Assembly (NCBI GenBank): GCA_021927905.1
Contig: BLLK01000051.1
Span: forward strand, 1,644,046 to 1,708,045
DNA: 64,000 nt
DNA from: Chaetoceros tenuissimus
Taxonomy: Eukaryota > Bacillariophyta > Thalassiosirophyceae > Chaetocerotales > Chaetocerotaceae
Direction: 5' to 3'
The translations under genes and the position numbers were made by a program. Shown here piece by piece: positions 11,748 through 53,088 of the stretch. The notes beneath the pieces are model-generated. The model did not search any database. It was given only the letters and a program-made list of their open reading frames with translations, and was not told where the DNA came from. How positions within the stretch are numbered: position 1 is the stretch's first letter; each line of letters begins with the position of its first letter.

Positions 11748-11970
11748 GATGTTCTTTTAGTCTTTTACTTTTGGTTGCTATGTACGTAAGAGTGAATAGT
11801 AAAAATTATGAGGACTTGTAGATTATATATAATAATGAATAGAGCATTACAAAAAGCAGGAGACTTGTGTGTTAATTTGTTCACGAAAGTAGATTATTCC
11901 GTATTTTGTTTCAGAGTGAAAATGTCGCAAGTCATTGAGGTCATCTTCGGCATATTACTCCGAATACAAA
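11748..11970 (-). promoter_or_regulatory. Shared upstream cassette, copy a (drives GT-like copy 1)
   Basis: Read on the minus strand this contains the blocks found ahead of the other cassette genes: GACTTGCGACATTTTCACTC, a block with ACTTTCGTGAAC, AAGTCTCCTGCTTTTTGTAA, ACAAGTCCTCATAA, and TACGTACATAGCAACC just before the ATG. The palindrome TTCGTGAA at 11880-11887 fits the head-to-head heat-shock-element core nTTCnnGAAn. Six copies occur in 10-29 kb, so the cassette genes are probably co-regulated. Confidence 0.7.
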
Positions 11971-12224
11971 AAGGTCATACAACAACACAACTGAAATTGG
12001 AAAAGGGATTGTAAAGTTTATGAAAAGAAGCTAGATAGATTGCATGAATTAGGAGGAATAATTACTTACATAAATCACTGTTGAATAAACAAATACCTAA
12101 AGAGAAGAAGCGTTTTCATCTATGTAAACATGTAAAATCATTTCTTCTTCACTAGCTATTCATTAAATTCACCTTCTTAAAATGTAATTATATAGTTTTG
12201 TGTGTAATGCCAAGATATTCTTCA

Positions 12225-12245
12225 AACGTCAAAAAAATTGACGTT
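12225..12245 (-). terminator. Hairpin just after the sulfotransferase stop
   Basis: AACGTCAA and TTGACGTT form a perfect 8-bp stem with a five-base A/T loop seven bases beyond the stop. The second sulfotransferase copy has the same stem with one mismatch. Its position suggests a role in 3' end formation or mRNA stability, but this is only inferred. Confidence 0.35.
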
Positions 12246-12251
12246 CATCAT

Positions 12252-13334
12252 TTATTCCACAGCTATGTTAGTTTTCACCTTTTCTTGGAGATTAGGCCAG
12301 ACATAATCAGCATTGTATGCAACACCAGATTCAAGGTCACAGTGAATTCTCATTGCTTTCAAATACATGTCCATTTCTAATTGTTTCCAATATGCGTCAG
12401 TTTGCCAAGAAGGATATTCATAAATGTCACAATCATTGTAAACTTCAATCACTTGCTTTTTGGGGAGAGATTCTTCTTGAAGCTTACGCACTGCCTGATT
12501 GTGTTGCAAAGTTGGATCAATAAAACTGTCAACAGTTTCGACTGAGAGTTGACCCGGAGGAGGAGGCACATTGCACTTTGAAGTAAGTTCATTGGAGATC
12601 CGAAGTACTTCATTGAAAGGATCTTGCAATATAGCATTATTTGAAGTAGTGACTCTACACATGTGAGCAGAATTTTGAATAGCAGCCTTGTTGTATACAA
12701 TCCATAGACGCAGACCATGAATCAAAGGTAATCTATCTCTAATGTTCAACGACTTTGCAACGCTTAGAGGATTGCGATAAGTGAAGACTACGGCTGGCTT
12801 GGAGTTGAGAAAAGGTAGCCATGATTGAAAAGTAATACAGAGCCTTGGGTCTTTGAGAAGCCATGGCGAACTTTTAGCATCATTCAATTGTTCTGTAACA
12901 TTTCTCAAATTCTTAATGTCAATTTCACCATTCAGAGCACTTCGAATAGCAATTTCATGATTAAATGAGTCAATGTTTGGATGATTCCAGGCATCTCTAA
13001 GTTGCAGCTGATCATACAAGAAAACTTGATTCTGGTTGACCGCAGGCGACAGTTCGAAGAATCCCTTTTCATTATCAGACGCCGGTTCGAGCAAGGGTCC
13101 ACCAGTCTTGTATCCAAAGCCCTCGACTAAAAGGCCTGAAATCATTGATGTTCCTGAACGATGCATTCCAAGCACCACAAAGCCGCTCGTTGGTTTCAAT
13201 TCTGAATCATGAATCTCAATGTTTGCTAGGCTTCTCTGACGAAATGTGTCTCCTTTGAATTCAAAAGAGAAATAAGCAGCACAGCAAAGTGTGACACATA
13301 AAAGAGTCTTTTTGAGCACGACAATAGGCCTCAT
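12252..13334 (-). CDS. Golgi-type sulfotransferase (copy 1)
   Basis: This 360-aa type II membrane protein has a short tail (MRPIVVLKK), an anchor at about 10-25 (LLCVTLCCAAYFSFEF) and an RXL motif (RSLANIE, 34-36). The catalytic domain starts at about residue 50. The 5'-phosphosulfate-binding loop GMHRSGTSM is at 56-64, KDPRL at 161-165, and the 3'-phosphate-binding segment YRNPLSVAKSL at 186-196 with the expected Arg and Ser. Sulfotransferases of this class move sulfate from PAPS to carbohydrate or tyrosine acceptors in the Golgi; the acceptor here is unknown. It lies in the middle of the inverted 2.17-kb block, flanked on both sides by shared cassettes that point away from it. A nearly identical copy is at 27186-28268. 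Confidence 0.85.
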   Translation of the reverse strand: MRPIVVLKKTLLCVTLCCAAYFSFEFKGDTFRQRSLANIEIHDSELKPTSGFVVLGMHRSGTSMISGLLVEGFGYKTGGPLLEPASDNEKGFFELSPAVNQNQVFLYDQLQLRDAWNHPNIDSFNHEIAIRSALNGEIDIKNLRNVTEQLNDAKSSPWLLKDPRLCITFQSWLPFLNSKPAVVFTYRNPLSVAKSLNIRDRLPLIHGLRLWIVYNKAAIQNSAHMCRVTTSNNAILQDPFNEVLRISNELTSKCNVPPPPGQLSVETVDSFIDPTLQHNQAVRKLQEESLPKKQVIEVYNDCDIYEYPSWQTDAYWKQLEMDMYLKAMRIHCDLESGVAYNADYVWPNLQEKVKTNIAVE

Positions 13335-13520
13335 GAAGCTTTCTGATATTTTTTTTTGAAACTGGAAATTGGAATTATATATGTTTGTTTTTGTGTCGAT
13401 CTGAAAAGTCTAGCTATCTCATAAAACTTGGTGATCCCTTTTTCCAATCGCTATTCGGAGTAAATCGAAACAAAAGTTTTTGTACGCTAATGACTCATGT
13501 GCGTACTTGTCTTGTAGGAA

Positions 13521-13724
13521 TTCAATTCTCGGAGTAATATATAAATGACCTGCGACATTTTCACTCTAAATGACTACGGAATAATCTACTTTCGTGAAAT
13601 TAACACAAGTCTCCTGCTTTTTGCAATGGTCTGCCTATTCATTACATATTCTACAAGTCCTCATAATTTTTACTATTCACTCTTACGTACATAGCAACCA
13701 AAAGTAAAAGACTAAAAGAACATC
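13521..13724 (+). promoter_or_regulatory. Shared upstream cassette, copy b
   Basis: This contains CTCGGAGTAATAT, TGCGACATTTTCACTCT, the TTCGTGAA palindrome at 13591-13598, AAGTCTCCTGCTTTTTGCAA, ACAAGTCCTCATAA and CTTACGTACATAGCAACC, ending at the ATG of the DUF3431-like gene. It matches copy e (26796-26995, reverse strand) more closely than the other cassettes. Confidence 0.7.
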
Positions 13725-15059
13725 ATGACTGTTACTAAAAAGAAAGCAGCAAAGATTCTTGTCGTTGCATTTCTAATGTTGTGTGTAGGATACATTTACA
13801 ACGAAGATTCTAAACTCTCGAGATTTCTTTCCTCTGAAGATAACGACCAAGAAGAAGGAACAAGCTCTCCTAAATCTTGCGATGGCTGGTGTCATCCTCA
13901 TTCCGATCCCTGGGATATGAAATGCACTTTCAAACATTGCAACGGATGTAGTCAGTGTCTTGATCAAGAAGACCAGAAGGTTCTTGAAGAAGAGGACCAA
14001 GAAGAGGAAGAAGGAGAGAAAAAGGAAAAGGAGGGCACCATTGAGCAAGCACAAGGAGAAGACAAAGAAGCAGAAGAAGCATTCTCTAACGACCCGGTAT
14101 ACTTGGAAAAGCTTTGGTTTGGTGAGAACGTTCGTGTAGAGGACATTCCTCAGGAAAAGCCAAACAAGGTTGACCTAGTGATTACATACTGCCATGCAGA
14201 AGATTTTGAAGAGTTTATTGAATATTTTGAAAAGATGTTGCCAGAGCACATTACAGTTATTCATTTGAAAGTCATGTCCAAATGCAACAAAGAGAATATT
14301 CTTGTGGAACATTTGAAAGAGAAGCTGATTGGTCTGTCAAGATGGCAATTCTCCATTTATCCCTTGGTCAACAAGGGTGGATGTGATCTTGGCGTAGCTC
14401 ACTATATTGTCGACTTTTTAAGAGAGCATCCAGTCATGAATACTGATGATAGCAACAAGGTTGTCATGTTTCTCAAGGATGGGCCTCGATCACCTCAAAA
14501 CTTTCATGTTGGAGGTGCCCATTATCGATCTTTGGAGAATATGTTTGAAATTTCATCACAAGGTCGCTTTGTTTGTGGTGCACAAATGAATAATTCTTTC
14601 TCTGCTTTTAGTAATGTGGAAGTACTCAAAACTTTCATGATGACTGGATATACACGATTGAACTCTGCTGAAAAGAGTGCATCTGGTATTGAGTTTACAC
14701 ATGGGTACGAGAATCTTGGTGATTTTGTGGACAAGGATTTGAATTGGTCTTGGCCTGAGTCATCCCTTGTGGAGGTATGCTACGGAGGAACATTTGCTTT
14801 CCATGCCTCGAACTTGTACAACAATGAGAATCTGCTTGAGGACCTTACAAAGGTCATTCGTATTTTGGAGGAAGGAGGTGATCTTTCAGCAGTTGAGCAC
14901 TTTATGGAGAGATTATGGGCAGCCTTGATTTCAAAGCCTTTGAATGAAAAAGAAGTGAAAGCTATTTCAAGCATGCCTGGTAAAAGTGTGATGCAGCATA
15001 TACATACTCCTGGGATATTAATTGCACCTGTGAGTCGTTCATACAGAAAGCATGTTTAA
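13725..15059 (+). CDS. Type II membrane protein with DUF3431-like lumenal domain (copy 1)
   Basis: This has the same N-terminal cassette as the GT-like gene: basic tail, anchor at about 10-24 (ILVVAFLMLCVGYIY), RXL motif (SRFLSS) and six-cysteine module ending near residue 78. A highly charged Glu/Lys/Gln stem follows at about 80-125, then a domain from about 143 (VDLVITYCHAEDFEEFIEYF). It continues with SRWQFSIYPLVNKGGCDLGV and VVMFLKDGPRSPQN. The order (start strand with Asp, then NxG-type turn, then strand with FLK/FLQ) resembles DUF3431, a family thought to be glycosyltransferase-like; the match is weak and by eye. The last block is VMQHIHTPGILIAPVSRSY. The N-terminal 78 residues match those of the GT-like copy 2 better than those of its own paralogue at 24166. 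Confidence 0.65.
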   Translation: MTVTKKKAAKILVVAFLMLCVGYIYNEDSKLSRFLSSEDNDQEEGTSSPKSCDGWCHPHSDPWDMKCTFKHCNGCSQCLDQEDQKVLEEEDQEEEEGEKKEKEGTIEQAQGEDKEAEEAFSNDPVYLEKLWFGENVRVEDIPQEKPNKVDLVITYCHAEDFEEFIEYFEKMLPEHITVIHLKVMSKCNKENILVEHLKEKLIGLSRWQFSIYPLVNKGGCDLGVAHYIVDFLREHPVMNTDDSNKVVMFLKDGPRSPQNFHVGGAHYRSLENMFEISSQGRFVCGAQMNNSFSAFSNVEVLKTFMMTGYTRLNSAEKSASGIEFTHGYENLGDFVDKDLNWSWPESSLVEVCYGGTFAFHASNLYNNENLLEDLTKVIRILEEGGDLSAVEHFMERLWAALISKPLNEKEVKAISSMPGKSVMQHIHTPGILIAPVSRSYRKHV

Positions 15060-15315
15060 AATCCATCATTAGTAGGGAATTAGAAATATGCTTTTAAAGT
15101 AGAAATTCATAACATGAAATACATAACTGTGAGTTGTCTATGTAAATTTCCTAGACAGCAATTTTATAGTGGCATATGTCTTGTACTCTTAGACGATTAT
15201 GAAGTAGTAATGATTTGGCTGCTTAGTGATACGTACTACTCGTAGTTGTGATAAGCGCTACTTGTATCCCAAATGAATATACAATCATATGATGTTACAC
15301 ATCACTGCTATGTAT

Positions 15316-16338
15316 TTACATTTTACTATTCATCCATTTCCGATAAAACAATTTCAAGTCATTCTCCGATACATCATCTTTTAATTGATAAATTCTAAGA
15401 CATCCAGTATCTTCGACGACTTGAGCAATTTCTTCTACAACATGATATGCCTTTCTGTAATTATCATGCGTGGCAACTCTCACATTGTGTATGTCATCTT
15501 TTCTATATTTGAGTGCGTGTAGGAAAGATAAACATGCACTAGGTACTCTGTATCTCCCATCCACCATGTATATATCGTATGCTTCTTGCGATTGAAGTAA
15601 TGTCGATATTTGATAATTGTACTTTATCTTTGCCAAATCGGGATGTATCGGGTTTCCCCATCCTCTCGTCGCTCCAATGTCAGCAAAGTGAAAATTAAAG
15701 TGTGTTACATTCATGTTTTCAACGTTGGATCTTGCTTGTGCAACCCATGTCGCATCACTATCAACTCCCGTATATCGAGGTACGCCGACATGTGCTGCAA
15801 TATATGTTGATTCTCCTAAGCCGAATTCAAACACAGATGAAGCGTTGTAGTAATATTCTCCAAGCAGTAAACGATCTGCATCGACGAGTCCTCCATCTCG
15901 TCTTGTCCAATTTCCTTTATTAGGATCAAGTGTATCATTGTTGAACTTTCGTTTTATGATATCTTGAGGCTGTACATTTGACGACTCATAAATTTCTCTT
16001 GCAATTTCATCAAAGGAAGACATGCTTATGGAAGTATCGTTGTTTGAAGAAGAGACTGGTATATCTTGTTCTCCTGAGATTTCATCGTTTGCATCTTTAT
16101 TTCCAAGTGTTGACTCTAGTTGCTGTATTCGTTCCGATAACTCAGCTTCAAGTTTCTTCTGGTCTTCTAAAAGTTCTTTATTTTCAGTCATACTATCAGT
16201 ATCTTTACTTGTATTTGAACAAGCAATAGTAGTTGCTGCTTCTCTTACAAGATATCTAGAAATCTTGTTTTGATTCAAGGCAAAAGATGCAAATAAAACA
16301 AAGCAAATGACGACACATGTGAAAATCTTTTCGGACAT
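15316..16338 (-). CDS. Type II membrane protein with methyltransferase-like domain
   Basis: An N-terminal anchor at about 5-21 (IFTCVVICFVLFASFAL) is followed by an RXL motif (SRYLVRE, 28-30) and a Glu/Lys/Leu-rich coiled-coil stem at about 50-80. The C-terminal domain has SSVFEFGLGESTYIA (168-180), matching motif I (ExGxG) of class I SAM-dependent methyltransferases. It continues with VDSDATWVAQAR, where the acidic residue would bind the SAM ribose, and YDIYMVDGRYR, matching motif post-II. The acceptor is unknown. It lacks the six-cysteine module and the shared upstream cassette, so its link to the cluster rests on position, topology and the RXL motif. It shares a 398-bp divergent spacer with the helicase gene. 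Confidence 0.65.
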   Translation of the reverse strand: MSEKIFTCVVICFVLFASFALNQNKISRYLVREAATTIACSNTSKDTDSMTENKELLEDQKKLEAELSERIQQLESTLGNKDANDEISGEQDIPVSSSNNDTSISMSSFDEIAREIYESSNVQPQDIIKRKFNNDTLDPNKGNWTRRDGGLVDADRLLLGEYYYNASSVFEFGLGESTYIAAHVGVPRYTGVDSDATWVAQARSNVENMNVTHFNFHFADIGATRGWGNPIHPDLAKIKYNYQISTLLQSQEAYDIYMVDGRYRVPSACLSFLHALKYRKDDIHNVRVATHDNYRKAYHVVEEIAQVVEDTGCLRIYQLKDDVSENDLKLFYRKWMNSKM

Positions 16339-16736
16339 TTTTCTTACTGTATCAATAAAGACCTATGGATGTTTATCGACGTTGTAGTATTAATGGAAGA
16401 CCGTTGATATGCAATGGGATTGGCTGATTTATCTGTATACATGAACTGTATGAGTTCGAAATGAGAAAAGCTTGTACTTACAGTACTACGTAAAGACATG
16501 AAAAGAACTCGCTGAAAACTAATTTAGGTCAATGACTCTTTGTCGCGACACTCTATTTTCTATAAAGATGGAAAAGGAAAGAGGAGAGACAGTGCATGAC
16601 TCAGAACCATTCAAACTCATTTCGATGCAACACACAACACATTTCATGTCCATTTGTTCTTTCAATTCTATTCAATTTATTGTAATTGACTTCATCTCTG
16701 TATCGGGCATCAACTACATTCACTATAGTATCAACA
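16339..16736. other. Divergent spacer, probable bidirectional promoter
   Basis: This 398-bp spacer lies between the minus-strand methyltransferase and the plus-strand helicase. It is AT-rich with no gene. No cassette motif is present. I chose the ATG at 16737 for the helicase, so the upstream in-frame ATG at 16686 falls in this spacer. Confidence 0.45.
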
Positions 16737-18356
16737 ATGGCAAAGAAAAAGAGATCTGAAAGCTCCGATGAGTCTTCTACCAAAAAGGCAAAAGTTGACT
16801 CATCAACTTCCTCTTCTTCGTCAACTGAAAAAAAGAATTTCTATTCCGATGATTCTGCAACCTTTTCAACTCTTCCCTTGTCTGATAAAACCAAGACTGC
16901 CCTCGAAGCACTCAACTTTACTCGCATGACTCAGATTCAGTCAAAGTCCATTCCTGCTCTACTAGCTGGTAAAGATTTAATTGGAGCCGCCAAAACTGGG
17001 TCCGGTAAAACTCTTGCATTTCTCATTCCAGTCATTGAATTGCTTCACAAATCTCAATTCTCAACCAGAAATGGAACAGGAGCCATCATCATCTCTCCTA
17101 CACGTGAACTCGCTATGCAAATTTATGGAGTGGCAAAGGATGTTTATTCTAATGGTAAACATTCACAAACCTATGGACTCATTATGGGAGGTGCCAACCG
17201 ACGTACCGAAGCTGAACGTCTTGCTAAAGGAGTCAACCTCATCATTGCTACTCCTGGTCGTCTACTTGATCACCTACAAAACACCAAAGGATTTGTATTC
17301 AGAAATTTATTAGCCTTTGTCATGGATGAAGCCGATCGCATCCTCGAACAGGGATTTGAAGACGATCTACGACAAATCCTAAAAATATTGCCTAAAGAAC
17401 GACAAACCATGTTGTTTTCTGCGACACAAACCAAAAAAGTGGAAGATATCGCACGGGTCAGTATCAATCCCAAAAATGCAACCTATGTCGAAGTGGCATC
17501 GGAAGATACATTGTCAACAGCTTCTGGACTGGAACAGGGTTATGTGACTGTACCTTCTGACAAACGCTTTTTGCTCCTATTCACGTTTCTCAAAAAGAAC
17601 AAGAACAAAAAAGTCATGGTGTTTTTCTCATCGTGTAATTCTGTTTCCTTCCATTCGGAACTTTTGAACTATATTGATATCCCCGTCATGGATATACATG
17701 GAAGACAAAAACAACAAAAACGTACCACCACCTTTTTCCAATTTTGTAAACAAAAGTCTGGAACTCTATTGTGTACCGATGTTGCTGCGAGAGGGTTGGA
17801 TATCCCAGATGTAGATTGGATTATTCAATTTGATCCACCAGATGATCCAAAAGAATATATTCATCGTGTGGGAAGAACTGCAAGAGGAGCTACTGGGAAA
17901 GGAAGAGCTTTGCTATTCTTGACTCCAGAAGAAACTGGTTTCTTGAGGTATTTGAAAGCTGCAAAGGTTTCTTTGAATGAATATGAATTTCCTACGAATA
18001 AAGTGGCTAATGTACAGTCTCAACTTCAGAGATTGATTGAAAAGAATTATTACTTGAATAAAGCTGCGAGGGATGCTTATAGATCTTATCTATTGGCATA
18101 TGCTTCTCATTCACATCGGGACATTTTCAATGTTGGAAACTTGGATTTGCAAGCGGTTGGGCTTGCGTTTGGATTTACGGTTCCTCCAAGAGTGGATCTA
18201 CCTAGTATCTCTACCAAAAAGGACGGAAAGAGACACAATGGACAGAAGTTGAAGGGAAATAAAAAGAGTAAAGGATTGAGTAGTGGACATGCTTTTTCAG
18301 CATCGAATCCATATGGTAAGAGAGAAAAGGGAGACAAGAGGCAGTTTTCTCATTAG
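16737..18356 (+). CDS. HAS1: DEAD-box RNA helicase, HAS1/DDX18 type
   Basis: This 539-aa protein is a nucleolar ATP-dependent RNA helicase of the kind needed for 60S ribosome assembly. Motifs in order are the Q-motif region ([16 protein letters not shown]), Walker [10 protein letters not shown] (85-92), [21 protein letters not shown] (VMDEADRI), SAT (LFSATQTKK), [18 protein letters not shown] and HRVGRTARG. The C-terminal region with [19 protein letters not shown] is typical of HAS1/DDX18, and a Lys-rich tail follows. I start at 16737 because that ATG sits in CAACAATGG and gives the usual Lys-rich N-terminus; the in-frame ATG at 16686 would add 17 unusual residues. It is a housekeeping gene lying inside the glycan-type cluster. 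Confidence 0.92.
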
Positions 18357-18784
18357 AGAATTTTGTGAATAGAATTCATTGGTTGGAATTGACACAGTTT
18401 AAATGGAAATAGTAAGAAATGTTGCTTAAAAACACAGGAAGTATGATCAACTTAGTATATTCGACCAGACAAGATCTTCGAAAGTAAAATTTGTTACAGT
18501 GTAGATTTATGAGTGCACCAAATTCTTTTTCTACTTTTTGCTCTTCCTCTTTCTTCTGTCGCTCACACCTCTCCGCAGGAAAAAGATAAAACAAGAGAGA
18601 AAATAAATGCTTTTACCTTTATTTATAATTCATATTCATGTTCTTATCGTTAGGGTTGTTGTTGTTGTTGATGATGCAATAGATAAGCGTATCTAAATAT
18701 ATGTTTTGTAAATTATGTGAATACATTTTACATTGTAAAGCTTATCATTTAAAAACAGCCATCATATGTTTGGTTTAGCCAATT
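18357..18784. other. Intergenic between convergent genes
   Basis: This holds the 3' ends of the helicase and the minus-strand SGNH pseudogene. A GTT/GAT trinucleotide run occurs near 18655-18680 next to one TTAGGG. No gene is supported. Confidence 0.45.
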
Positions 18785-20292
18785 CTAATCCACAGTAATC
18801 TTTGTTACTTCAGTCAAGAGATGTCTGACTTTTGTTGTTGTAGCATCAGCACACAATACTTTAGCAATTTCAAGACGTGCAAAATCTGATTCTTTTTGCA
18901 AAAGAGTGATTTTCACTGGTGGCTTCCAAGTAGGTGGAGAAAATTGTAAAAGTCGAAATGCGTTTTTGCCTAATCCAACCCATTTGTATGTGGAATCATG
19001 GAAAGGTTCCACATTCTCTGATCCCTCTACCATGCTCTGAACTGAATAGGATACAGTTTCATTTGTCCATGTATGTGCCACCCATGCAATCTTTACATGT
19101 TGATACTATCCTTGACAACCTAGTACAACACTTGATGAAACATCATTGGAATTGAGAGTCACTTTATCCTCTCAACCTGAGAAAGGAGAACTCATTTCAA
19201 ATCCATGATTCTCCAAGACTAAAGCTGGCAATTTTCTCTCTTCAATTTGATCGGCTTTGCCCCACTCACCAAAGCATACAGATGATTGCTCTTGTTCTTG
19301 CCGTAGTATTACAGAGTTCTCATGCAAAAAACTTTCTTCCATAATCATTTTTGGTAAAACAACATTTTTCAAATGATGGACAATCTGTTCAGCTATGTAT
19401 TGATGATATGGTGGCTGTCCATGCTGCATTGCTCTTGGATGAGGGGTGCCACATGAAGAATGTAAAGTTGCCATGACCTTTGTTCCAGTTCTATCTGCAA
19501 TAGCTTGCTGAGCCGTTTCTGAAGTACATTCCTTTAAGCATAACACTGCTTAGGAATATATGCTCCTGAAAAGGGATTTGGACTAGTATAATTATAGAAT
19601 GAAGGGACAAGACATGGCCATACATTCTTATCCTGCTCTGGGAGATTAATTACACTAAATTTGCTCTTGTCCTGAAGACGCTCATATGCAGCAATAGTTG
19701 CACTCTTTGTTGATGGGGAAGTAAGCCAGGACCATAAATCAAGAATGATAACATGTTTGGCACGTTGAGCGAGAAGTTCATACCATGCGTCAAGGTTTAA
19801 AGGGCTAAACTCATTGATTCTATACTCGGAAATGATGATGTCTGCAGGATCAATGCCACACAATAGATGCTGTGACACACCAGCAGCAGGAATTGCCAAA
19901 TTGGAAGTCTCAACTCCAAGAGCTTTTCCAACGAGAGCACTGAATCGCTTATTTTTATGATCAAGAAAATCGTATCCAGCTGAGATACTTCCTCCATAAA
20001 AGTCAATTTTAAGAGGTGTACCATCTTCTTTTGTAGGTGTCATTAGGTCTTGTTGGTCTTGTTCAAAGCATTGATTACATCCGTTGCAATCCTTGAAAGT
20101 GCATTTCATATCCCAGGGATCAGAATGAGCAGGACACCATCCTTGGCATTCCTTGTTCTCTGCATCGTCTTCATTAGCCAAGTGACGGGCTACCGATTCG
20201 TCTTGCAAGTTTTGAAATACTAGGAAAAGTCCAAGGATCACGGCTAGAACTACCTTCGTAGTTTGTCTTCTTTGCTGAAGTTTTCTCAGCAT
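18785..20292 (-). pseudogene. SGNH hydrolase-like type II membrane protein (copy 1), broken
   Basis: The N-terminus has an anchor at about 13-27, an RXL motif (ARHLANE, 36-38) and the six-cysteine module (49-75). The catalytic part shows SGNH blocks: FYGGSISAG (98-106, nucleophile Ser), LAIPAAGVSQ, SEYRINE, and the C-terminal YHQYIAEQIVHH with the expected His. The family includes esterases and O-acetyl transfer enzymes acting on glycans or lipids. A C-terminal beta-rich extension follows. Three lesions are visible by comparison with the plus-strand copy: a frameshift near 19540 after IPKQCYA, an in-frame TGA at 19172-19174, and an in-frame TAG at 19106-19108. Its anchor differs from the shared cassette, but the Cys module is the same. 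It is head-to-head with copy 2. Confidence 0.8.
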
Positions 20293-20760
20293 CTTGAGAA
20301 TTTGAACGATCCGCTAAATATTTGCTATGATGATTTGTAGAATATGATTGTAATCCAGGTAATGAATAGAGATATATTTTGGCATACTCTCTTCTATAAT
20401 GTTGTATAAAACAACCACCTTTTCTCTTTTCCAAGTACGTACATAAGTCATTCAACTAGATGAGTATTTACAGAGTAATATCTCAATGACTTGCGACATT
20501 TTCACTCTTGAACCGGAATATCCTACTTTCGTGAACAAATTAACACATAATATTCCGATCTAACCACTCTTTTCGGAGTAATATTTTTTACTCTCGAATC
20601 AGAGCGTGAACCAAAAATCAATATTGTAGACCTGACCCCTAACTAGAACTGAATAAAAGCAATTGTACCTTCTTACTCTTTCAGATAGTTACAATTTGTT
20701 CATAAGAATTATGCAACTTTCAATTTCATCTCCACATAGCAAGCAATAATAATAATCATC
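20293..20760. promoter_or_regulatory. Divergent spacer with shared upstream cassette, copy c
   Basis: On the plus strand 20476-20560 carries GAGTAATATCTCAATGACTT, GCGACATTTTCACTC and the TTCGTGAA palindrome at 20528-20535, then AATTAACACA. The later blocks (CTCCTGC, ACAAGTCC) are lost and replaced by other sequence. It probably served the plus-strand SGNH copy. The left half, next to the minus-strand copy, lacks these blocks. Confidence 0.6.
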
Positions 20761-23148
20761 ATGCCTGTTCCTAAAAAGAGTGCAGCAAAGATTCTCATCG
20801 TTGCATTCCTCATGTTATGTGTAGGATACATTTACAATGAAGATTTTATGCTCTCATCAAGATTTCTTTCTGATGAAGAGAAATATTGTGATGGCTGGTG
20901 TCTTCCTCATGCTGATCCTTGGGAAATGAAATGCACATTCAAGCATTGCAATGGATGTAATCAATGCTTTGAACAAGACAAGGATGACAAGCCATTGGAA
21001 GATGGTTCTTCTAATGACTTGTCTGTCATCCCAACTTCTGTCAAAATAATTGATGTGTATGGAGGAAGTGTTACTCGAGGTGATCAATTCTTTGATCATG
21101 AGAATAAGAGGTTCAGCGCCTTGTTAGGAAAAGCATTGGGAATTGATGTAAAGAACAAGGGAATTGCTGGCGCTGGTCCTTCCCAGAATCTCTTGTGTGG
21201 AATTTATGAAGCCAATATCATCATTTCAGAATATAGATTCAATGAGCACGATGGTAAAATTCTAGATCAATGGTACAAACTTATTGCACAAAAAGCAAAA
21301 CATGTTTTTAATTCTTGATCTTTGGTCATGGTTGACTCCACCTGGCAAAAGTGCAACTTTCGAGGCATTTGAGAGAATCAAAGATAAAAGCAAATTCAGT
21401 GTACTGAATCTGGCGGAGCAGGATAAGAATGTATGGCCTTGCCTTGTGCCATCTTTATTTGACTACAGATCTCCTGAAGATTTCACAGTTTGGAGCAAGA
21501 TTCCAGAGAAGTGTCATGTTTATGCAGAAGGTGAGGAGTGCAATTCAGATGAAGCGAAACAAGCAATTGCTGATAGAAGTGGGACTTCTGCCGTGGTATC
21601 TTTAAGATCCTCATGTAATCCTAATGAAACACCAAATCATGCGCTATATGGCACGCCATCATATCATGACTATGTGACAGATCTACCACAACTGGGGGGG
21701 ATAATTTTCACCTAGTGGGACTCAACATTTTTGACACCGGGGGCTTAAGTAACCATTTAGCTCGCTAGGAGGCCTCAGAAGCCTCTTCTGCACCATTGCT
21801 GCTGCTTTTCAACAAGCTCCCCGCGATGAACACACTAACAAACACAACTAATTCAATCAAAATACACTGCTACACTCCATTTCTTCAGTAACCTACGGAG
21901 ACTATTGCAGAAATCGAATCTATAGACACTCCTTGAACAGAAAGCGAAGGAGTCTCCGTAGGTTACCAGGAAAATATTGAGAAATTGAAATGTTCAGTCA
22001 TCTCTTGACTACAAATTTGATCATGACTACATCTTTACACGTCAACTAGTGAATCGATTCAATCTATCAAGGTGATTCAAACACACCATCTATTCATGTT
22101 TTTACTAAAGAATAAGCACTAGTCTTGATTATACTATTATGTAGTTTGTAAATGCGTAGAATGGAGGTATTGTTGGTGTAGAGATGTGTCGTTGAATCGT
22201 TTGATTGAAACCTGCCTCTCTATTGTGGCCTGAATTCTTCATAACTTACGGAGACTCCTTCGCATTATGTTCAAGGAGTGTCTATAGATTCGATTTCTGC
22301 AATAGTCTCCGTAAGTTACTGAAGAAATGAAGCTACAGGCTAGGTATTTCAATTGAATTAGGTGTTAGTTTGTTGTTTGTTAGTGCTCTTATTGCGGTGG
22401 AGACCACCTTTCTTTTGGCGCGAAGTGAGCTATCAGTGAAAAGTGAAAATGTCTGAGCTAAATAATTTACTTAAGCCCACCGTTAAATATTTTAACCGTC
22501 ATAAGGGGGGAGCAGTTGTGCACATGGTAAGATCAACTTGTGCATCACTTCCAAAATGTGGTGTTCCCACAATTGAAGGCAATGGAAGATGCTACTCATG
22601 ACCAAGTGATTCGACAGGGGATGGAAGAGGAAGATCATAATTCAGTCTGCTTTGGAGAATGGGGAACTACCACACAGTCAGAGGAAAAGAAATTGCAAGC
22701 TATTGTACTAGAAAACAATGGATTCGAAAGTAGTTCTCCTTTTTCTGGTCAAAAGGACAAGGTAACTCTCAACACCAATGTAGAAAATGCAAGTGTAGTT
22801 CTTGGTTGTCCAGAAGGATATGACACAATGAAATTGGCATGGGTTGCACATAATGTGAAAGAAGAGACTGTGACTTTTTCAGTTAAGAGTTTAAAGTCAG
22901 AGGAGGAGCCTTCACATCTTTCTACAAGTGAAACAGCGCTTGGAGGAGCTGTTGAAGGTAAAATGTTTGCTGTACGGCGTGTTTTAATTTACTCACAAGA
23001 GTCGTGGCAACCACCTGTGAAAGTGACTTTATCAGGAAAGCGATCTGATTCTGCCAGGCTTGAAGTTGGCAATGTTTTATGTTCCCATCATAGTACAGAT
23101 CGTCGCCTCTTGAATTCACTTTCAGACAATCTGCTATATTTGAATTAG
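20761..23148 (+). pseudogene. SGNH hydrolase-like type II membrane protein (copy 2), split by a foldback element
   Basis: It starts with the shared cassette: a basic tail, ILIVAFLMLCVGYIYNED anchor, an RXL motif (SSRFLS) and the six-cysteine module. SGNH blocks are VYGGSVTRG (nucleophile Ser), IAGAGPSQN, SEYRFNE and YHDYVTD...LVHHFQ. A one-base frameshift lies in or next to a run of T near 21305-21311 (AKHV, then ILDLWSW in another frame). An 846-bp element at 21684-22529 interrupts the gene between YVTD and QLVHHF. The remaining 3' part continues to 23148 with the beta-rich C-terminal domain, intact. The gene cannot make a full protein as assembled. Confidence 0.85.
21684..22529. mobile_element. 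Non-autonomous foldback element (846 bp)
   Basis: The insert is flanked by a 5-bp target duplication, AGATC at 21679-21683 and 22530-22534; removing one copy and the insert restores the SGNH reading frame locally. Its ends begin TACCA and finish TGGTA. The two arms, about 280 and 290 bp, are imperfect inverted copies (both have GGGCTTAAGTAA, then TTTAGCTC, CACTAACAAAC and TTCTTCAGTAAC). Each arm also holds its own hairpin: 15-bp stems at 21889-21903/21951-21965 and 22242-22256/22304-22318. No transposase is encoded, so it must have been moved by an enzyme from elsewhere. I cannot name the superfamily. Confidence 0.8.
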
Positions 23149-23363
23149 CTTTTGGCCTGTGCTCATCAGAGCAATTAATTTGATTCTTTCTTATGCTTCA
23201 CTGATTACTGTATGTAATTACTTTGATTAAACAAGTTGATGATAATATCAATGACCCTAACCATAACTTTACTGAGATAAAAAATATGAATTATGGCAGC
23301 ATCTTCTTTTCTAAAGAATAGAGACGACTTGTATATCCTTATCTCGGAGTAATATCTCAATGA

Positions 23364-23376
23364 CCCTAACCCTAAC
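23364..23376. repeat. Interstitial telomere-like repeat
   Basis: CCCTAACCCTAAC directly follows a fragment of the shared cassette (AATATCTCAATGA). A similar CCCTAACCATAAC lies at about 23254. Confidence 0.7.
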
Positions 23377-23837
23377 TGAGTAATATCTCAATGACCTCTG
23401 CAACAATTGATTCATAAAACCATCATCTCTGCAAGTTTCATAGAGTTCATCTTCCAAATCTCTCACATCCTTTTGACATCCAATATTCTGTTTGAAACCA
23501 AGTGTATATTCAAACATGTTCTTTTTTTATGCACCCATTCCTCTAATGATTCAATCCTTGTACTATTCAATGAAATCTGAACAGAATTTTTGAATTTCTT
23601 TTCTGAATCCACATTTTACATTCACAAAAGAAATCCAATGTTGTCTCTAGAAGTGCCTGTGGTGCACCGCAACAAAGTGGTAGAGGTGATCACAATGCTC
23701 CTTTTACCGCCCTCTAACACTTTGTGAACCTCTAACACTTTGTGGCGCCCTAAAGAAAGGATGCACATGTATGCTGCGCGGCGGCGAACCCTTGGACTCT
23801 CCCCTGATCAGCTTATTGCTTGGTTTTAATGCGATTT

Positions 23838-23912
23838 TGCTTGCTCATAATGTGAAAAAAGAGATAGTCATTGGTTATGTAGAAGTTGGCAATGTTTTTA
23901 CGTGGAGTCATT
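23838..23912 (+). pseudogene. Short relic of an SGNH gene 3' part
   Basis: GCTCATAATGTGAAAAAAGA and GTAGAAGTTGGCAATGTTTT match parts of the SGNH copy 2 coding end (encoding AHNVKEE and LEVGNVL) but are brought close together, with the sequence between them lost. It is a deleted fragment of a third copy. Confidence 0.55.
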
Positions 23913-23980
23913 TTGGGTCATTTGACAGGTGTCAAGTTGTGTATGATCAAGTTGTGTATAATTTCATAATTTCAGAGTCC

Positions 23981-24165
23981 GGAGTAATATCTCAATGACT
24001 TGCGACATTTTCACTCTTGAAACGGCGGAATATCCTACTTTCGTGAACAAATTAACACAAGTCTCCTGCTTTTTGTAGTGCTCTATATTCCATAATCTAC
24101 AAGTCCTCATAATATTTACTATTCACTTCTATGTACATAGCAAGCAAAAGTACTAAAAGAACATC
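23981..24165 (+). promoter_or_regulatory. Shared upstream cassette, copy d
   Basis: Nearly complete cassette: CGGAGTAATATCTCAATGAC, TTGCGACATTTTCACTC, TTCGTGAA at 24040-24047, AAGTCTCCTGCTTTTTGTAG, ACAAGTCCTCATAATATTTA and ATGTACATAGCAAGC, ending at the ATG at 24166. Confidence 0.7.
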
Positions 24166-25482
24166 ATGACTGTATCTAAAAAGAAAACAGCAAAGATTCT
24201 TGTCGTTGCATTTCTAATGTTGTGTGTAGGATACATTTACAACGAAGATTCTAAACTCTCGAGATTTCTTTCCTCTGAAGATAACGACCAAGAAGAAGGA
24301 ACAAGCTATCCTAAATCTTGCGATGGCTGGTGTCATCCTCATTCCGATCCATGGGATATGAAATGTACTTTCAAGCACTGCAACGGATGTGATCAGTGTC
24401 TTGATCAAGAAGACCAGAAGGTTCTTGAAGAAGAGGACCAAGAAGAGGAAGGAGAGAAAAAGGAAAAGGAGGGCACCATTGAGCAAGCACAAGGAGAAGA
24501 CAAAGAAGCAGAAGAAGCCTCGTCCAATGACCCGGTATACTTGGAAAAGCTTTGGTTTGGTGAGAACGTTCGTGTAGAGGACATTCCTCAGGAAAAGCCA
24601 AACAAGGTTGACCTAGTGATTACGTACTGTCATGCAGAAGATTTTGAAGACTTTATTGAATATTTTGAAAAGATGTTGCCAGAGCACATTACAATTATTC
24701 ATTTGAAAGTCATGTCCAAATGCAACAAAGAGAATATTCTTGTGGAACAATTGAAAGAGAAGCTGATTGGTCTGTCAAGATGGCAATTCTCCATTTATCC
24801 CTTGGTCAACAAGGGTGGATGTGATCTTGGCGTAGCTCACTATATTGTCGACTTTTTAAAAGAGCATCCAACCATGAACACTGATGATATCAACAAGGTT
24901 GTCATGTTTCTCAAGGATGGGCCTCGATCACCTCAAAACAAACAAGTTCCAGGTGCACATTATCGATCTTTGGAGAATATGTTTGAAATTTCATCTCAAG
25001 GTCGCTTTGTTTGTGGAACCGCCACAAATGATGGGAAATCTGTTTATAGCGAATGGAGCGAACTTCAAAAGTACATGTTGAATGGATATGTGAGGCACAA
25101 CTCTGCTGTAGGTGCATCTGGTATTGAGTTTACACATGGGTACGAGAATCTTGGTGATTTTGTGGACAAGGATTTGAATTGGTCTTGGCCTGAGTCATCC
25201 CTTGTGGAGGTATGCTACGGAGGAACATTTGCTTTCCATGCCTCGAACTTGTACAACAATGAGAATCTGCTTGAGGACCTTACAAAGGTCATTCGTATTT
25301 TGGAGGAAGGAGGTGATCTTTCAGCGGTTGAGCACTTTATGGAGAGATTATGGGCAGGCTTGATTTCAAAGCCTTTGAATGAAGAAGAACAAGGTATTCT
25401 TTCAAAAGTGCCTGAAACGCATATTGAGTCAAACCCATGGCAACTTGGAGAGTTGTTTGGATCTGTCAGTCGTTCTTATTAG
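24166..25482 (+). CDS. Type II membrane protein with DUF3431-like lumenal domain (copy 2)
   Basis: This 438-aa paralogue of the gene at 13725 has the same layout: basic tail, anchor, RXL motif, six-cysteine module, charged stem (shorter by two residues) and the domain starting VDLVITYCHAEDFEDFIEYF. Most of the domain is nearly identical to copy 1. Two stretches differ clearly: the segment after GRFVCG (ATNDGKSVYSEWSE against AQMNNSFSAFSNVE) and the last 30 residues. Clustered differences in otherwise identical copies fit gene conversion or selection at a surface loop. The frame is intact and the upstream cassette complete, so it is probably expressed. It is tail-to-tail with the GT-like copy 2. 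Confidence 0.65.
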   Translation: MTVSKKKTAKILVVAFLMLCVGYIYNEDSKLSRFLSSEDNDQEEGTSYPKSCDGWCHPHSDPWDMKCTFKHCNGCDQCLDQEDQKVLEEEDQEEEGEKKEKEGTIEQAQGEDKEAEEASSNDPVYLEKLWFGENVRVEDIPQEKPNKVDLVITYCHAEDFEDFIEYFEKMLPEHITIIHLKVMSKCNKENILVEQLKEKLIGLSRWQFSIYPLVNKGGCDLGVAHYIVDFLKEHPTMNTDDINKVVMFLKDGPRSPQNKQVPGAHYRSLENMFEISSQGRFVCGTATNDGKSVYSEWSELQKYMLNGYVRHNSAVGASGIEFTHGYENLGDFVDKDLNWSWPESSLVEVCYGGTFAFHASNLYNNENLLEDLTKVIRILEEGGDLSAVEHFMERLWAGLISKPLNEEEQGILSKVPETHIESNPWQLGELFGSVSRSY

Positions 25483-25687
25483 AGCAAATAGATTAATCAC
25501 AGATGTTGTTTTCAATATTATAAAATCAAAGACATTTTTTTGTTACATATTTGAAAATACTTGCATGTATGGGTAGTTTTCGCATTTTTTAACTGCGTCA
25601 TAACATCTTATCACACGCTCATTGAGAAATTCTTTGCTTTATTTTGAATTAATCTACAAATTTATTAAAACCCCTAACCTCACCTTA

Positions 25688-26795
25688 TTATTTCTCAGAC
25701 AGATATTCCTTTGGTTGGAAAGATCCTCCTACTTTCTTTGCATCGGCATAAAAAATCCATCCCCACCATGTCGAATCAGGAATTTCATCATAAAGAATAT
25801 GATATTCTCTCAAACGATCATACATTGTTGCAGGGATCCCACCTCCAATACGTGCATATGTACCATAATCAAATCTTGGAGCAGGCTTCAACTCATTTTT
25901 TGAAATCAGGAGGAGGAATATTACTATAGTTCCACACAAAACGGCTGTCGTCCGAAAGATCGCAAGGTTTGACGCTTGGATGAGAATGAACCCAATGTTC
26001 AGAAGCATAACGATCACAACCCATGTTAGAACAGCTGAACCGGAGAACCTCTTTGTACAAGTTGGTCATTCTCTCCTCAAACTCGTATGGATCGTACAAT
26101 TTCTGAATGTAATCACACTTGGCTGTCCACATGTTACCAGAAGTATGTGGATGAGGATAAGGAGACATACGAGAACTACAGACATTGCACGTATCAGGCA
26201 TACTCGCACATTCTTGAGACAAAGCACCTCTGGTCAAGAATTTACGTAACGCATCGTTTTCAGCTGACGGATGGAATGAACCCTTGTTGTGAATATAAGT
26301 GACTGTATCTTCAAGATTTTCTTTACAGTGATTGTACAAGAGTTCAAGTGTTCCCTTTTCATTTCCTTCTTCATCAAAGCGAAGAGTCTCAGAATTATCA
26401 ATATCAATCTTGGTTCCAATGTAGCGAACCAATACTTTGTGAAATGGCAAAATTAGTTTCATTTGCTCGTCAACGATACTTTTAGATGCTTCAATTTGAT
26501 CCTGACTTGAGTCACTTGTATAGACATTGTAGAATACCTTGACAGCAGGGACATCTTCAAGACACTGATCACATCCGTTGCAATGTTTGAAAGTGCATTT
26601 CATATCCCAGGGATCGGAATGAGGATGACACCATCCATCACAAGATTTAGGAGAGCTTGTTCCTTCTTCTTGGTCGTTATCTTCAGAGGAAAGAAATCTC
26701 GAGAGTTTAGAATCTTCGTTGTAAATGTATCCTACACACAACATTAGAAATGCAACGACAAGAATCTTTGCTGCTTTCTTTTTAGTAACAGTCAT
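25688..26795 (-). pseudogene. GT-like type II membrane protein (copy 2), one-base frameshift
   Basis: This is a paralogue of the gene at 10647 with the full N-terminal cassette and lumenal domain (VTYIHNKGSFHPS, CNVCSSRMSPYPHP). The frame breaks after IPPPDFK, where a run of six A (plus strand T at 25896-25901) replaces what should be five; dropping one base gives FKNELKPAP and runs on to the end at 25688. The other 95% of the gene is intact, so an assembly or sequencing error is a real alternative to a fresh mutation. Where copy 1 has telomere-like codons, this copy has KEVLRFSCSNMGCDRY, presumably the original sequence. Its N-terminal cassette is closest to that of the DUF3431-like copy 1. 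Confidence 0.75.
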
Positions 26796-26995
26796 GATGT
26801 TCTTTTAGTCTTTTACTTTTGGTTGCTATGTACGTAAGAGTGAATAGTAAAAATTATGAGGACTTGTAGAATATGTAATGAATAGGCAGACCATTGCAAA
26901 AAGCAGGAGACTTGTGTTAATTTCACGAAAGTAGATTATTCCGTAGTCATTTAGAGTGAAAATGTCGCAGGTCATTTATATATTACTCCGAGAAT
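26796..26995 (-). promoter_or_regulatory. Shared upstream cassette, copy e
   Basis: On the minus strand this carries the cassette blocks in order, with the TTCGTGAA palindrome at 26922-26929. Wherever I compared it, it is identical to copy b, including the unusual GCAATGGTCTGCC variant, so the two come from one recent duplication. Confidence 0.7.
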
Positions 26996-27185
26996 TGAAT
27001 TCCTACAAGACAAGTACGCACATGAGTCATTAGCGTACAAAAACTTTTGTTTCGATTTACTCCGAATAGCGATTGGAAAAAGGGATCACCAAGTTTTATG
27101 AGATAGCTAGACTTTTCAGATCGACACAAAAACAAACATATATAATTCCAATTTCCAGTTTCAAAAAAAAATATCAGAAAGCTTC

Positions 27186-28268
27186 ATGAGGCCTATTGTC
27201 GTGCTCAAAAAGACTCTTTTATGTGTCACACTTTGCTGTGCTGCTTATTTCTCTTTTGAATTCAAAGGAGACACATTTCGTCAGAGAAGCCTAGCAAACA
27301 TTGAGATTCATGATTCAGAATTGAAACCAACGAGCGGCTTTGTGGTGCTTGGAATGCATCGTTCAGGAACATCAATGATTTCAGGCCTTTTAGTCGAGGG
27401 CTTTGGATACAAGACTGGTGGACCCTTGCTCGAACCGGCGTCTGATAATGAAAAGGGATTCTTCGAACTGTCGCCTGCGGTCAACCAGAATCAAGTTTTC
27501 TTGTATGATCAGCTGCAACTTAGAGATGCCTGGAATCATCCAAACATTGACTCATTTAATCATGAAATTGCTATTCGAAGTGCTCTGAATGGTGAAATTG
27601 ACATTAAGAATTTGAGAAATGTTACAGAACAATTGAATGATGCTAAAAGTTCGCCATGGCTTCTCAAAGACCCAAGGCTCTGTATTACTTTTCAATCATG
27701 GCTACCTTTTCTCAACTCCAAGCCAGCCGTAGTCTTCACTTATCGCAATCCTCTAAGCGTTGCAAAGTCGTTGAACATTAGAGATAGATTACCTTTGATT
27801 CATGGTCTGCGTCTATGGATTGTATACAACAAGGCTGCTATTCAAAATTCTGCTCACATGTGTAGAGTCACTACTTCAAATAATGCTATATTGCAAGATC
27901 CTTTCAATGAAGTACTTCGGATCTCCAATGAACTTACTTCAAAGTGCAATGTGCCTCCTCCTCCGGGTCAACTCTCAGTCGAAACTGTTGACAGTTTTAT
28001 TGATCCAACTTTGCAACACAATCAGGCAGTGCGTAAGCTTCAAGAAGAATCTCTCCCCCAAAAGCAAGTGATTGAAGTTTACAATGATTGTGACATTTAT
28101 GAATATCCTTCTTGGCAAACTGACGCATATTGGAAACAATTAGAAATGGACATGTATTTGAAAGCAATGAGAATTCACTGTGACCTTGAATCTGGTGTTG
28201 CATACAATGCTGATTATGTCTGGCCTAATCTCCAAGAAAAGGTGAAAACTAACATAGCTGTGGAATAA
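27186..28268 (+). CDS. Golgi-type sulfotransferase (copy 2)
   Basis: This is a 360-aa protein identical to the product at 12252-13334 except for Gln in place of Lys in the segment SLPQKQVIEV (about residue 292). All features of that copy are present: anchor, RXL (RSLANIE), GMHRSGTSM loop, KDPRL and YRNPLSVAKSL. The near-identity, including surrounding non-coding DNA, points to a recent duplication or recent gene conversion. Both copies have intact frames, so both are probably functional and add gene dosage. It is transcribed rightward here and leftward in the other block. Confidence 0.85.
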   Translation: MRPIVVLKKTLLCVTLCCAAYFSFEFKGDTFRQRSLANIEIHDSELKPTSGFVVLGMHRSGTSMISGLLVEGFGYKTGGPLLEPASDNEKGFFELSPAVNQNQVFLYDQLQLRDAWNHPNIDSFNHEIAIRSALNGEIDIKNLRNVTEQLNDAKSSPWLLKDPRLCITFQSWLPFLNSKPAVVFTYRNPLSVAKSLNIRDRLPLIHGLRLWIVYNKAAIQNSAHMCRVTTSNNAILQDPFNEVLRISNELTSKCNVPPPPGQLSVETVDSFIDPTLQHNQAVRKLQEESLPQKQVIEVYNDCDIYEYPSWQTDAYWKQLEMDMYLKAMRIHCDLESGVAYNADYVWPNLQEKVKTNIAVE

Positions 28269-28561
28269 ATGATGAACGTCAATTTATTGACATTTGAAGA
28301 ATATCTTGGCATTACACACAAAACTATATAATTACATTTTAAGAAGGTGAATTTAATGAATAGCTAGTGAAGAAGAAATGATTTACATGCGCGCTTCTTC
28401 TCTCCTAGTATTTGTTTATTCAAGAGTGATTTCTTTTCTGAACAAAGCTATGTAAGTAATTATTCCTCCTAATTCATGCAATCTATCTAGCTTCTTTTCA
28501 TAAACTTTACAATCCCTTTTCCAATTTCAGTTATGTTGTTGTATGACCTTTTTGTATTCGG

Positions 28562-28729
28562 AGTAATATGCCGAAGATGACCTCAATGACTTGCGACATT
28601 TTCACTCTGAAACAAAATCGAAATACGGAATAATCTACTTTCGTGAACAAATTAACACACAAGAGAAGTCTCCTGCTTTTTGTAATGCTCTATTCATTAT
28701 ATATATATTCTACAAGTCCTCATAATATT
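28562..28729 (+). promoter_or_regulatory. Shared upstream cassette, copy f (orphan)
   Basis: A complete cassette start (GGAGTAATATGCCG, GACTTGCGACATTTTCACTC, TTCGTGAA at 28640-28647, TCTCCTGCTTTTTGTAATG, ACAAGTCCTCATAATATTTA) stops abruptly at 28729 and is joined to a gene's 3' end. It matches copy a best. It no longer has an ATG-bearing anchor region to drive. Confidence 0.7.
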
Positions 28730-28730
28730 T

Positions 28731-28810
28731 ACCCTGGTACAAGTGTGATGCAGCATACATATACTCCTGGCATATTAATTGCACCTGTGTGTCGTTCATA
28801 CAGAAACTAA
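28731..28810 (+). pseudogene. Relic 3' end of a DUF3431-like gene
   Basis: The sequence encodes GTSVMQHTYTPGILIAPV then CRSYRN and a TAA, matching the last 25 codons of the gene at 13725 (GKSVMQHIHTPGILIAPV). Everything between the upstream cassette and this point has been deleted. The following 250 bp match the 3' flank of that gene (15060-15310), for example GACGATTAT...GTAGTAATGATTTGGCTGC. Confidence 0.8.
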
Positions 28811-29362
28811 GTAAGAAGAGGAAACATAGTCTTTTTTATTTTCAACATATAATGGCGAGAAGAAACATATTACATGAAATGCAATAACTATGAGTTAAAA
28901 GTAAATTTCCTAAGCAACACTTTTGGTTGCATTTGTCTTGTACTCGTAGACGATTATTACGTAGTAATGATTTGGCTGCTTAGGGGTACGTACTAGTTGT
29001 AATAAGCGCTACTTGCATCAAATATGAATTACTTCATATCATGATGTTCTCATGACTAGGGTTGGGGTGATGAGATCTAAGAGATCCAAGCCGAGGAAGT
29101 GATGAATAATATATAGATAAATGAAAAGCATAATGACAAGTAAAGACACGTTAAATGAAATCTAATTTACTATGAATTCATTGAAAAACAAGACCTTTGT
29201 CGCACGAATGGAATGTTTACAATGACGAGCAAGAATCAAATCAACGTGCAAGCAAAACATACACAAGAACATACAAAATAGAGCCGAAGATCTACTATTG
29301 CAATTAATAGAAAAAGATCGTCTCTTCAATCAACAATAGCTTCAAGTATTAATGCATCAATC
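28811..29362. other. Relic 3' flank, then upstream region of the DHHC gene
   Basis: The first 250 bp are homologous to 15060-15310 and mark the right edge of the duplicated cluster near 29060. The rest is A-rich sequence leading to the ATG at 29363, with no other gene. Confidence 0.55.
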
Positions 29363-53081: not shown

Positions 53082-53088
53082 CTTGCTT

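Follow-up and report, generated by a model that had tools for sequence, protein, structure and literature searches.

The question raised by this locus is how a single block of DNA came to stand in both orientations between the same kinds of neighbouring genes, and whether it is a switch that is still being thrown. The stretch analysed (the window) comprises 64,000 nucleotides of the diatom Chaetoceros tenuissimus (GenBank assembly GCA_021927905.1, contig BLLK01000051.1, positions 1,644,046 to 1,708,045 of the forward strand). The block is 2.17 kb long, carries one intact sulfotransferase-like gene (ST) per copy and is found at 11799-13963 and, on the opposite strand, at 28732-26557, the two copies being 97.4% identical over 2,182 columns (self-BLAST). 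An earlier note, made from the sequence alone, had read it as an invertible block that swaps promoters and anchors between neighbours in the manner of phase variation; its account of the two orientations was borne out, the left end of copy 2 at 26557 included, and the right end was corrected from 28729 to 28732. On the evidence given below, a duplicated gene cluster in the nuclear genome of this diatom was probably remodelled in the course of evolution and not by a programmed switch: inverted 5' cassettes would have undergone ectopic homologous recombination and gene conversion, and at least one of the steps would have been an inversion or an inverted gap repair.

The ST gene lies on the reverse strand in copy 1 (ST1, 12252-13334, 360 aa) and on the forward strand in copy 2 (ST2, 27186-28268), the products differing by 1 aa. 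The genes to the left, called GT-like, are GT1 (10647-11747, reverse strand, 366 aa, consisting of a leader of type t1, a Cys module and a GT-like body) and GT2 (25893-26795, reverse strand), which align directly at 90.1% (self-BLAST); GT2 is frameshifted near its 3' end, in an A run, and similarity resumes in another frame to about 25718. To the right, copy 1 is followed by a DUF3431-like gene (DUF1, 13725-15059, forward strand, 444 aa) and copy 2 by a relic of such a gene (28733-29043, forward strand), retaining the last 27 codons and 3' flank and aligning directly at 76.3% with 14976-15294, the 3' end of DUF1 and its flank. As the homologous neighbours keep the same sides at both copies, the block is turned relative to them, and the occurrence of both orientations between the same kind of flanks amounts to two paralogous loci (locus 1 and locus 2) with one orientation each in one assembly. 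Between the inverted copies lies an interval of 12.6 kb (13964-26556, length computed) that is predicted to be invertible; it includes a second DUF3431-like gene (DUF2, 24166-25482, forward strand, 438 aa). A mobile element with the cassettes as its terminal repeats was considered and rejected, the neighbours being on the same sides at both copies and ST being the only open reading frame (ORF) of at least 200 aa wholly inside the block (target-site duplications were not searched), as was a micro-inversion at 12071-12134, where only indels and substitutions were found.

The ends of the block are indeed inverted cassettes, each of about 425 bp (about 190 bp of upstream sequence plus the first 78 codons). 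Cassette A belongs to GT1 (11512-11936, reverse strand), B to DUF1 (13544-13961, forward strand), C to DUF2 (23980-24404, forward strand) and D to GT2 (26557-26990, reverse strand); E, belonging to the relic, is truncated to its promoter part (28582-28732, forward strand). By self-BLAST, 11512-11936 matches 13961-13544 at 92.0% and 23980-24404 matches 26990-26557 at 89.9%. The first 78 codons of GT2 are 98.3% identical in nucleotides to those of DUF1 (synonymous divergence, dS, 0.045) and 92.7% identical to those of GT1 (dS 0.26), as had been claimed, and the promoter of GT2 differs from that of DUF1 at 0/181 positions and from that of GT1 at 15/181. GT2 thus carries the promoter and N-terminus of DUF1. 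The relic promoter E is of A type, with 3/137 differences from A and 16/130 from B. Since D equals B and E resembles A, the cassettes changed partners along with the block.

In a topology test on four cassettes, the pairing expected from the bodies (GT1 with GT2) was rejected by the approximately unbiased (AU) test for the whole cassette (p=0.0019), the promoter (p=0.005) and the coding part (p=0.018), and by the Shimodaira-Hasegawa (SH) test for the whole cassette (p=0.027) and the promoter (p=0.023); none of the 11 sites that divide the cassettes two against two backs the body pairing. Agreement of the N-terminal and C-terminal trees, which the earlier note had named as part of what would refute it, was thus not found. 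Cassette C is a mosaic, its promoter nearer to A (seven sites split AC|BD) and its coding part nearer to B. Twelve coding sites split A|BCD, so that D, on a GT body, groups with both cassettes of the DUF genes. Within the cassettes A and B are 94.1% identical in the coding part and 91.7% in the promoter, with an exact run of 96 bp in 425 bp. Trees of eight cassette sequences were poorly supported and were not used.

Block and flanks are of unequal age. Over 360 codons, ST1 and ST2 show a dS of 0. The GT bodies, compared over 221 codons as far as the stop of GT2, have reached 0.24, and the DUF bodies 0.175 over 360 codons; the block was therefore copied or homogenised recently, much later than the flanks diverged. 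Over its 1,645 bp, the core of the block (12235-13879, corresponding to about 26641-28285) shows a single mismatch, and its longest exact run of 1,418 bp (12462-13879) is shared in inverted orientation with 26641-28058. Divergence is higher at the two edges, with 4 mismatches in 84 positions on the right (p=2.5e-5) and about 8 substitutions in 428 on the left (p=2.3e-5; an approximate count with indels left out), which points to at least two episodes. A simple flip of a unit that was duplicated together with its flanks was judged insufficient, given an ST dS of 0 beside flanks at about 0.2. The two copies are thus long, near-identical inverted repeats (2.17 kb) that appear to have evolved in concert within flanks at a dS of 0.175-0.24.

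The cassette exchange at locus 2 is not isolated but belongs to a process that has recurred in this genome. All 68 contigs (41.03 Mb) were searched, the queries being ST, the cassette in both protein and DNA form, the bodies of GT and DUF, and a second leader; the resulting counts are lower bounds, as only first-look candidates were scored. The Cys-rich module and/or a related leader was also found on two SGNH-like genes forming a divergent pair on contig 58, on a homologous but broken pair at 19534-23148 in the window, and on a sulfotransferase gene above the Pfam cutoff (PF03567, E=2.6e-16) and its broken relative; a protein with four modules was found as well. Four genes that we take to be GT25-like, a name without Pfam support, are 63-72% identical in amino acids and bear four different leaders. 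Four leader types (t1 to t4) and six body families yielded ten combinations, which require a minimum of six transfers on the assumption of a single origin for each leader, with leader types assigned by us and with relics on contigs 16 and 54 and a gene on contig 17 uncounted. Unrelated bodies accordingly bear similar N-termini in some cases, and related bodies dissimilar ones in others.

The SGNH-like pairs illustrate such differences. The left gene of the window pair (19534-20292, reverse strand, an ORF of 252 aa against 503 aa on contig 58) has a t2 leader on a body that bears t1 in the contig-58 duplicate, and the second gene (20761-23148, forward strand, t1 leader) is interrupted by an 846-bp insertion (21684-22529). 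The contig-58 and window clusters represent a colinear 5.3-kb duplication, 90.5-95.8% identical except for this insertion and the cassettes, the cassette region measuring 1,521 bp on contig 58 and 587 bp in the window. The left leader in the window matches that of the sulfotransferase gene at C38:1524 kb (85%, 129 bp). On contig 58 the left and right genes (SGNHa and SGNHb) agree at 98 of 100 bases from -10 to +90 and at 301 of 446 in their bodies (+290 to +740); SGNHb of contig 58 and SGNHb of the window agree at only 82 of 100 from -10 to +90, though their bodies agree at 435 of 450. The Cys module of the right gene in the window is of left type, agreeing at 47/50 with its partner, 46/50 with the left gene of contig 58 and 37/48 with its own counterpart there. 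Between the window pair and the pair at C38:1524 kb the flanks are colinear (85% and 82%), and a 116-bp stretch with the t1 promoter element (20432-20547, forward strand; L075:4959-5067) stands in opposite orientation (86%).

The proposed course of events may be set out as follows. A 5' cassette, consisting of a promoter of about 190 bp, a leader with an R-x-L motif (RXL) and usually a Cys-rich module, is common to genes for non-homologous enzymes. Its copies, often inverted in divergent pairs, would pair with each other and with distant copies; a crossover, or gap repair in inverted register, would turn the segment between two cassettes, and gene conversion would overwrite promoters and leaders. 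One such event would have inverted the ST block at locus 2 and given GT2 the cassette of DUF1, a deletion would have removed most of the right-hand DUF gene, and later conversion would have made the ST core identical to that of locus 1. Crossing over at locus 2 between a cassette of A type and one of B type would lead to the same end state as inverted gap repair from locus 1. Locus 2 is favoured as the changed copy because the coding part of D, although D stands on a GT body, falls with the DUF cassettes and apart from A. The rearrangement is most likely stable on short time scales, and not a programmed switch.

The nearest competitor dispenses with a flip. A break at locus 2 would have been repaired by pairing of the GT2 cassette with B, priming inverted copying of B-ST-A from locus 1, followed by end joining to the DUF relic. 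Orientation, cassette exchange, near-identity and truncation would then all follow from one step, the ST dS of 0 beside flanks at about 0.2 would be expected, and the block does end inside cassette A, at 11799, adjoining the deletion junction. Against this stand the edges, which are more diverged than the core and call for at least two episodes, and the right flank, which is also homologous to the right flank of locus 1, as if the whole unit had formerly been present at locus 2; inverted copying is thus possible, and we hold it distinctly less likely than the course set out above. Alternatively, the inverted unit may have been the DUF2-GT2 segment between C and D (23980-26990), locus 2 being an inverted copy of DUF-ST-GT in which DUF2 and GT2 were turned later. 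The mosaic structure of cassette C, with its A-like promoter, its seven AC|BD sites and its B-like coding part, is what a crossover near the ATG would leave, but no account would be given of the DUF relic on the right-hand side of block 2 or of its direct homology to the right flank of DUF1, and we regard this history as unlikely. A flip or inverted gap repair is accordingly preferred to inverted copying, and inverted copying to inversion of the other segment.

The remaining possibilities concern the present state of the locus. The likely source genome is reported to have a heterozygosity of 1.56% and to have been assembled from Illumina and Nanopore reads (PMC8613185). A hybrid assembler might have created one block copy, or its identical core, in a repetitive region, and both the core difference of 1/1,645, which is below the reported heterozygosity (PMC8613185), and the frameshift of GT2 in an A run are in line with this; yet the flanks of the two loci are distinct (about 90-92%), the block edges differ and mosaics occur on another contig, which makes an artefact improbable. 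About as improbable, in our estimate, is a live switch, in which the ST block or the 12.6-kb interval would flip in growing cultures and change the pairing of promoters and leaders. Suitable substrates are present, namely inverted copies of an exact 1,418-bp sequence at a distance of 12.6 kb, and the 425-bp cassettes at 92% with their 96-bp exact run. The block copies (2.17 kb) are the longer substrate, and recombination between them, a route that the earlier note did not consider, would turn 13964-26556 round, so that the bodies of DUF1 and GT2 changed places behind leaders that are nearly identical. Little would change by such a flip, however, cassettes A and B being nearly equivalent, so that no gene would obviously be silenced. 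Among ten ORFs between 10.6 and 31.5 kb, Pfam scans gave no recombinase, eight of the ten being without any family at E<=0.01, and a comparable 24-kb region in yeast, with near-identical repeats of 4 kb, is reported not to have flipped in about 53,800 mitoses (PMC9731477). The comparison with phase variation is therefore not upheld: the exchanged cassettes are of the same kind, ST lies wholly inside the block, and its near-identity beside flanks at a dS of about 0.2 reflects recent copying or conversion.

Several points weigh against recombination between inverted cassettes as the preferred explanation. It rests on one assembly of one strain, and the identity of the core might in part be a consensus artefact. 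On coding sites the body tree survives the SH test (p=0.22, against an AU p of 0.018). Polarity is uncertain, as the promoter of cassette C is A-like and the coding sites favour neither of the two non-body trees over the other; the place of the flip step could also be taken by inverted copying from locus 1. At locus 1 itself, cassettes A and B have not been homogenised recently (dS 0.20), which speaks against continuous exchange there. In the window SGNH pair, the values of 47/50 and 46/50 are about equal, so that the partner is only one of two possible donors; the 116-bp difference in orientation may equally have come about by differential loss in a palindromic ancestor, since the C38 locus keeps a relic leader on that side. 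A permutation test gave 0/5000 for all six of six pairs, ordinary paralogues included, and so indicates only uneven divergence without discriminating between them.

The gene names belong among these points, since GT, DUF, SGNH, GT25 and the block ST are all names without Pfam support above cutoff. The names GT, DUF3431 and sulfotransferase of the block were taken from the earlier note and from motif reading, and proved weakly based. For the block ST, the match to the Pfam sulfotransferase domain stayed below cutoff (PF13469, E=0.12, 13 bits against a cutoff of 27), and a profile of five family members matched no PDB chain at E<=1; the motif GMHRSGTS in ST1 is presumably P-loop-like. GT gave no relevant Pfam family and nothing at E<=1 in a profile search of PDB, and 'GT-like' is an unconfirmed label of the earlier note. 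Neither the DUF1 body nor its paralogue L045 matched Pfam DUF3431 at E<=5, nor had DUF1 another relevant Pfam match; the DUF profile gave ten chance-level matches in PDB, the best at E 0.18 (mS51), followed mostly by cyclin-dependent kinases. Structure models of DUF1 and GT1, built from two-row alignments, had mean pLDDT values of 31.3 and 30.7 and were unusable. The contig-58 SGNH copy matched PF13472 below cutoff (E=0.041). No viral-contig relatives of the cassette or of the DUF profile were confirmed.

The nature of the leaders was addressed through the RXL motif. It follows shortly after a hydrophobic segment in 7/7 N-termini that were treated as independent (t1 to t4, the block ST, the adjacent methyltransferase-like gene and the contig-17 gene), a distant kinship among t1 to t4 being possible. 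Among controls it was seen in 1/9 body paralogues without the module (L003; Fisher p 0.0014) and in 1/15 other ORFs with a hydrophobic start (L008; Fisher p 4.7e-5), some of the window ORFs in the latter set being perhaps spurious; the test was post hoc, the motif having been noticed beforehand, and the control sets overlap by seven ORFs. Given RXL after a hydrophobic segment, what had been called an anchor may be a cleavable leader: such leaders are typical of cleaved diatom pro-peptides, and the word anchor may be wrong, with transmembrane anchoring as the other possibility. The cassette may thereby equip enzymes for carbohydrate and sulfate tailoring with a common promoter and with a cleavable leader that routes them to the secretory, cell-wall or silica pathway.

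To our knowledge, the enzymes that sulfate or glycosylate silaffins are mostly unidentified. Silaffins are reported to be both sulfated and glycosylated (PMC4557024). RXL is described in many diatom biosilica-associated proteins, where an N-terminal RXL corresponds to the pro-peptide cleavage site, its role in processing being described as yet to be proven (PMC5647440; further sources on diatom RXL are PMC5525289, PMC9650480 and PMC4557024). The leaders described here share with silaffins, silacidins, cingulins, frustulins, silicanin and SAPs an N-terminal signal segment followed by RXL (as described in PMC4557024, PMC5525289 and PMC5647440); they differ in that RXL here stands on enzyme-like proteins, the carriers described there being biosilica-associated. 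In passages of PMC10328945, the one paper among the matches listed that names both, RXL (in silicanin homologues) and sulfotransferases (enriched in diatoms and read as a stress response) are treated separately.

The processes invoked are known ones, combined in a new setting. The closest known behaviour is that of the 24-kb flip/flop region on chromosome XIV of Saccharomyces, which has 4-kb near-identical repeats; it is reported to have been reoriented repeatedly in evolution, yet about 53,800 mitoses and 950 meioses yielded no flip (PMC9731477). Both are nuclear inversions between gene-containing, near-identical inverted repeats that are recurrently homogenised; the yeast region is known in both orientations across strains and its stability was tested (PMC9731477), whereas the diatom case is known from one assembly, and the diatom repeats, unlike those of Saccharomyces as described there, also carry 5' gene ends, so that leaders are re-mounted on different bodies. 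The view that such inversions are rare in nuclear genomes needs tempering, as flip/flop mating-type switching is reported to have arisen at least ten times in budding yeasts (PMC6692504). There too an invertible nuclear segment is flanked by inverted repeats with, in one case, the 5' end of a gene, but the orientation varies from strain to strain and one of the sites is presumed to be silenced (PMC6692504). In the CRN (Crinkler) genes of oomycetes, recombination of N-terminal and C-terminal parts has been reported, in that unrelated C-terminal bodies bear similar N-termini and vice versa (PMC3726527); CRNs are secreted effectors of plant pathogens (PMC3726527), while the diatom bodies resemble carbohydrate and sulfate enzymes and come with promoters and inverted divergent pairing. 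Among the literature matches listed on divergent pairs with gene conversion in diatoms and on inverted repeats with N-terminal exchange, no title or abstract opening describes a case of this kind.

Other features of the window and of the cassette-bearing genes were recorded in passing. The methyltransferase-like neighbour with an RXL leader (15316-16338, reverse strand) matches Methyltransf_31 below cutoff (E=0.026); its 3' end recurs just outside GT1 as a 66-bp inverted repeat (10515-10580 / 15300-15365, 92%, self-BLAST), and locus 1 as a whole is therefore bracketed by inverted copies. The 846-bp insertion at 21684-22529 holds inverted repeats (21829-21965 / 22242-22381, 87%), like a foldback element. 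A fragment of a DEAD-box helicase gene region (L074:201-1064 on contig 58; 17836-18718 in the window; 90.9%) was duplicated together with the SGNH pair. Four-module Cys-rich proteins are encoded at L075:1455-2291 and L027:1378-2805, one of them fused to a GT25-like body, with no Pfam match above cutoff; across 11 modules the invariant residues are C, W, C, H, W, K, C, C, G, C and C. In the contig-17 gene (L019:1483-2676) the module is C-terminal, not N-terminal, on a DUF707-like protein (PF05212, E=0.0019, below cutoff). Further to the right, 44197-55360 holds a Helitron-like element (matches to Helitron_like_N, PIF1 and DUF6570), apparently interrupted by a copia-type long terminal repeat (LTR) retrotransposon (47772-53761, RVT_2) that must be young, as its 289-bp LTRs are 99.0% identical. 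A satellite of units of about 240 bp, roughly 90-95% alike (self-BLAST), occupies 56809-64000 and reaches the end of the contig. No pair of TTAGGG units was found on the forward strand of the window; two CCCTAACCCTAA sites lie at 10965 and 23364.

Taken further, the inverted leader cassettes might be recombination hubs that continually re-mount a promoter, an RXL leader and a Cys module on different enzymes of carbohydrate and sulfate tailoring, with the block or the 12.6-kb interval present in both orientations in natural populations and a heritable, reversible variation of the enzyme set at the cell wall or in the silica vesicle as the result; this is a speculative proposal, to which we give a small chance. 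The precise junctions described here are available for asking whether nuclear inversions still occur in diatoms. If the explanation preferred above is right, sulfate and sugar enzymes would be tied to the RXL leader of silica proteins and would become candidate genes for the tailoring of silaffins, and the diatom would equip its enzymes for secretion by swapping a cassette of promoter plus leader among unrelated genes through inverted pairs, and not by point mutation of targeting signals.

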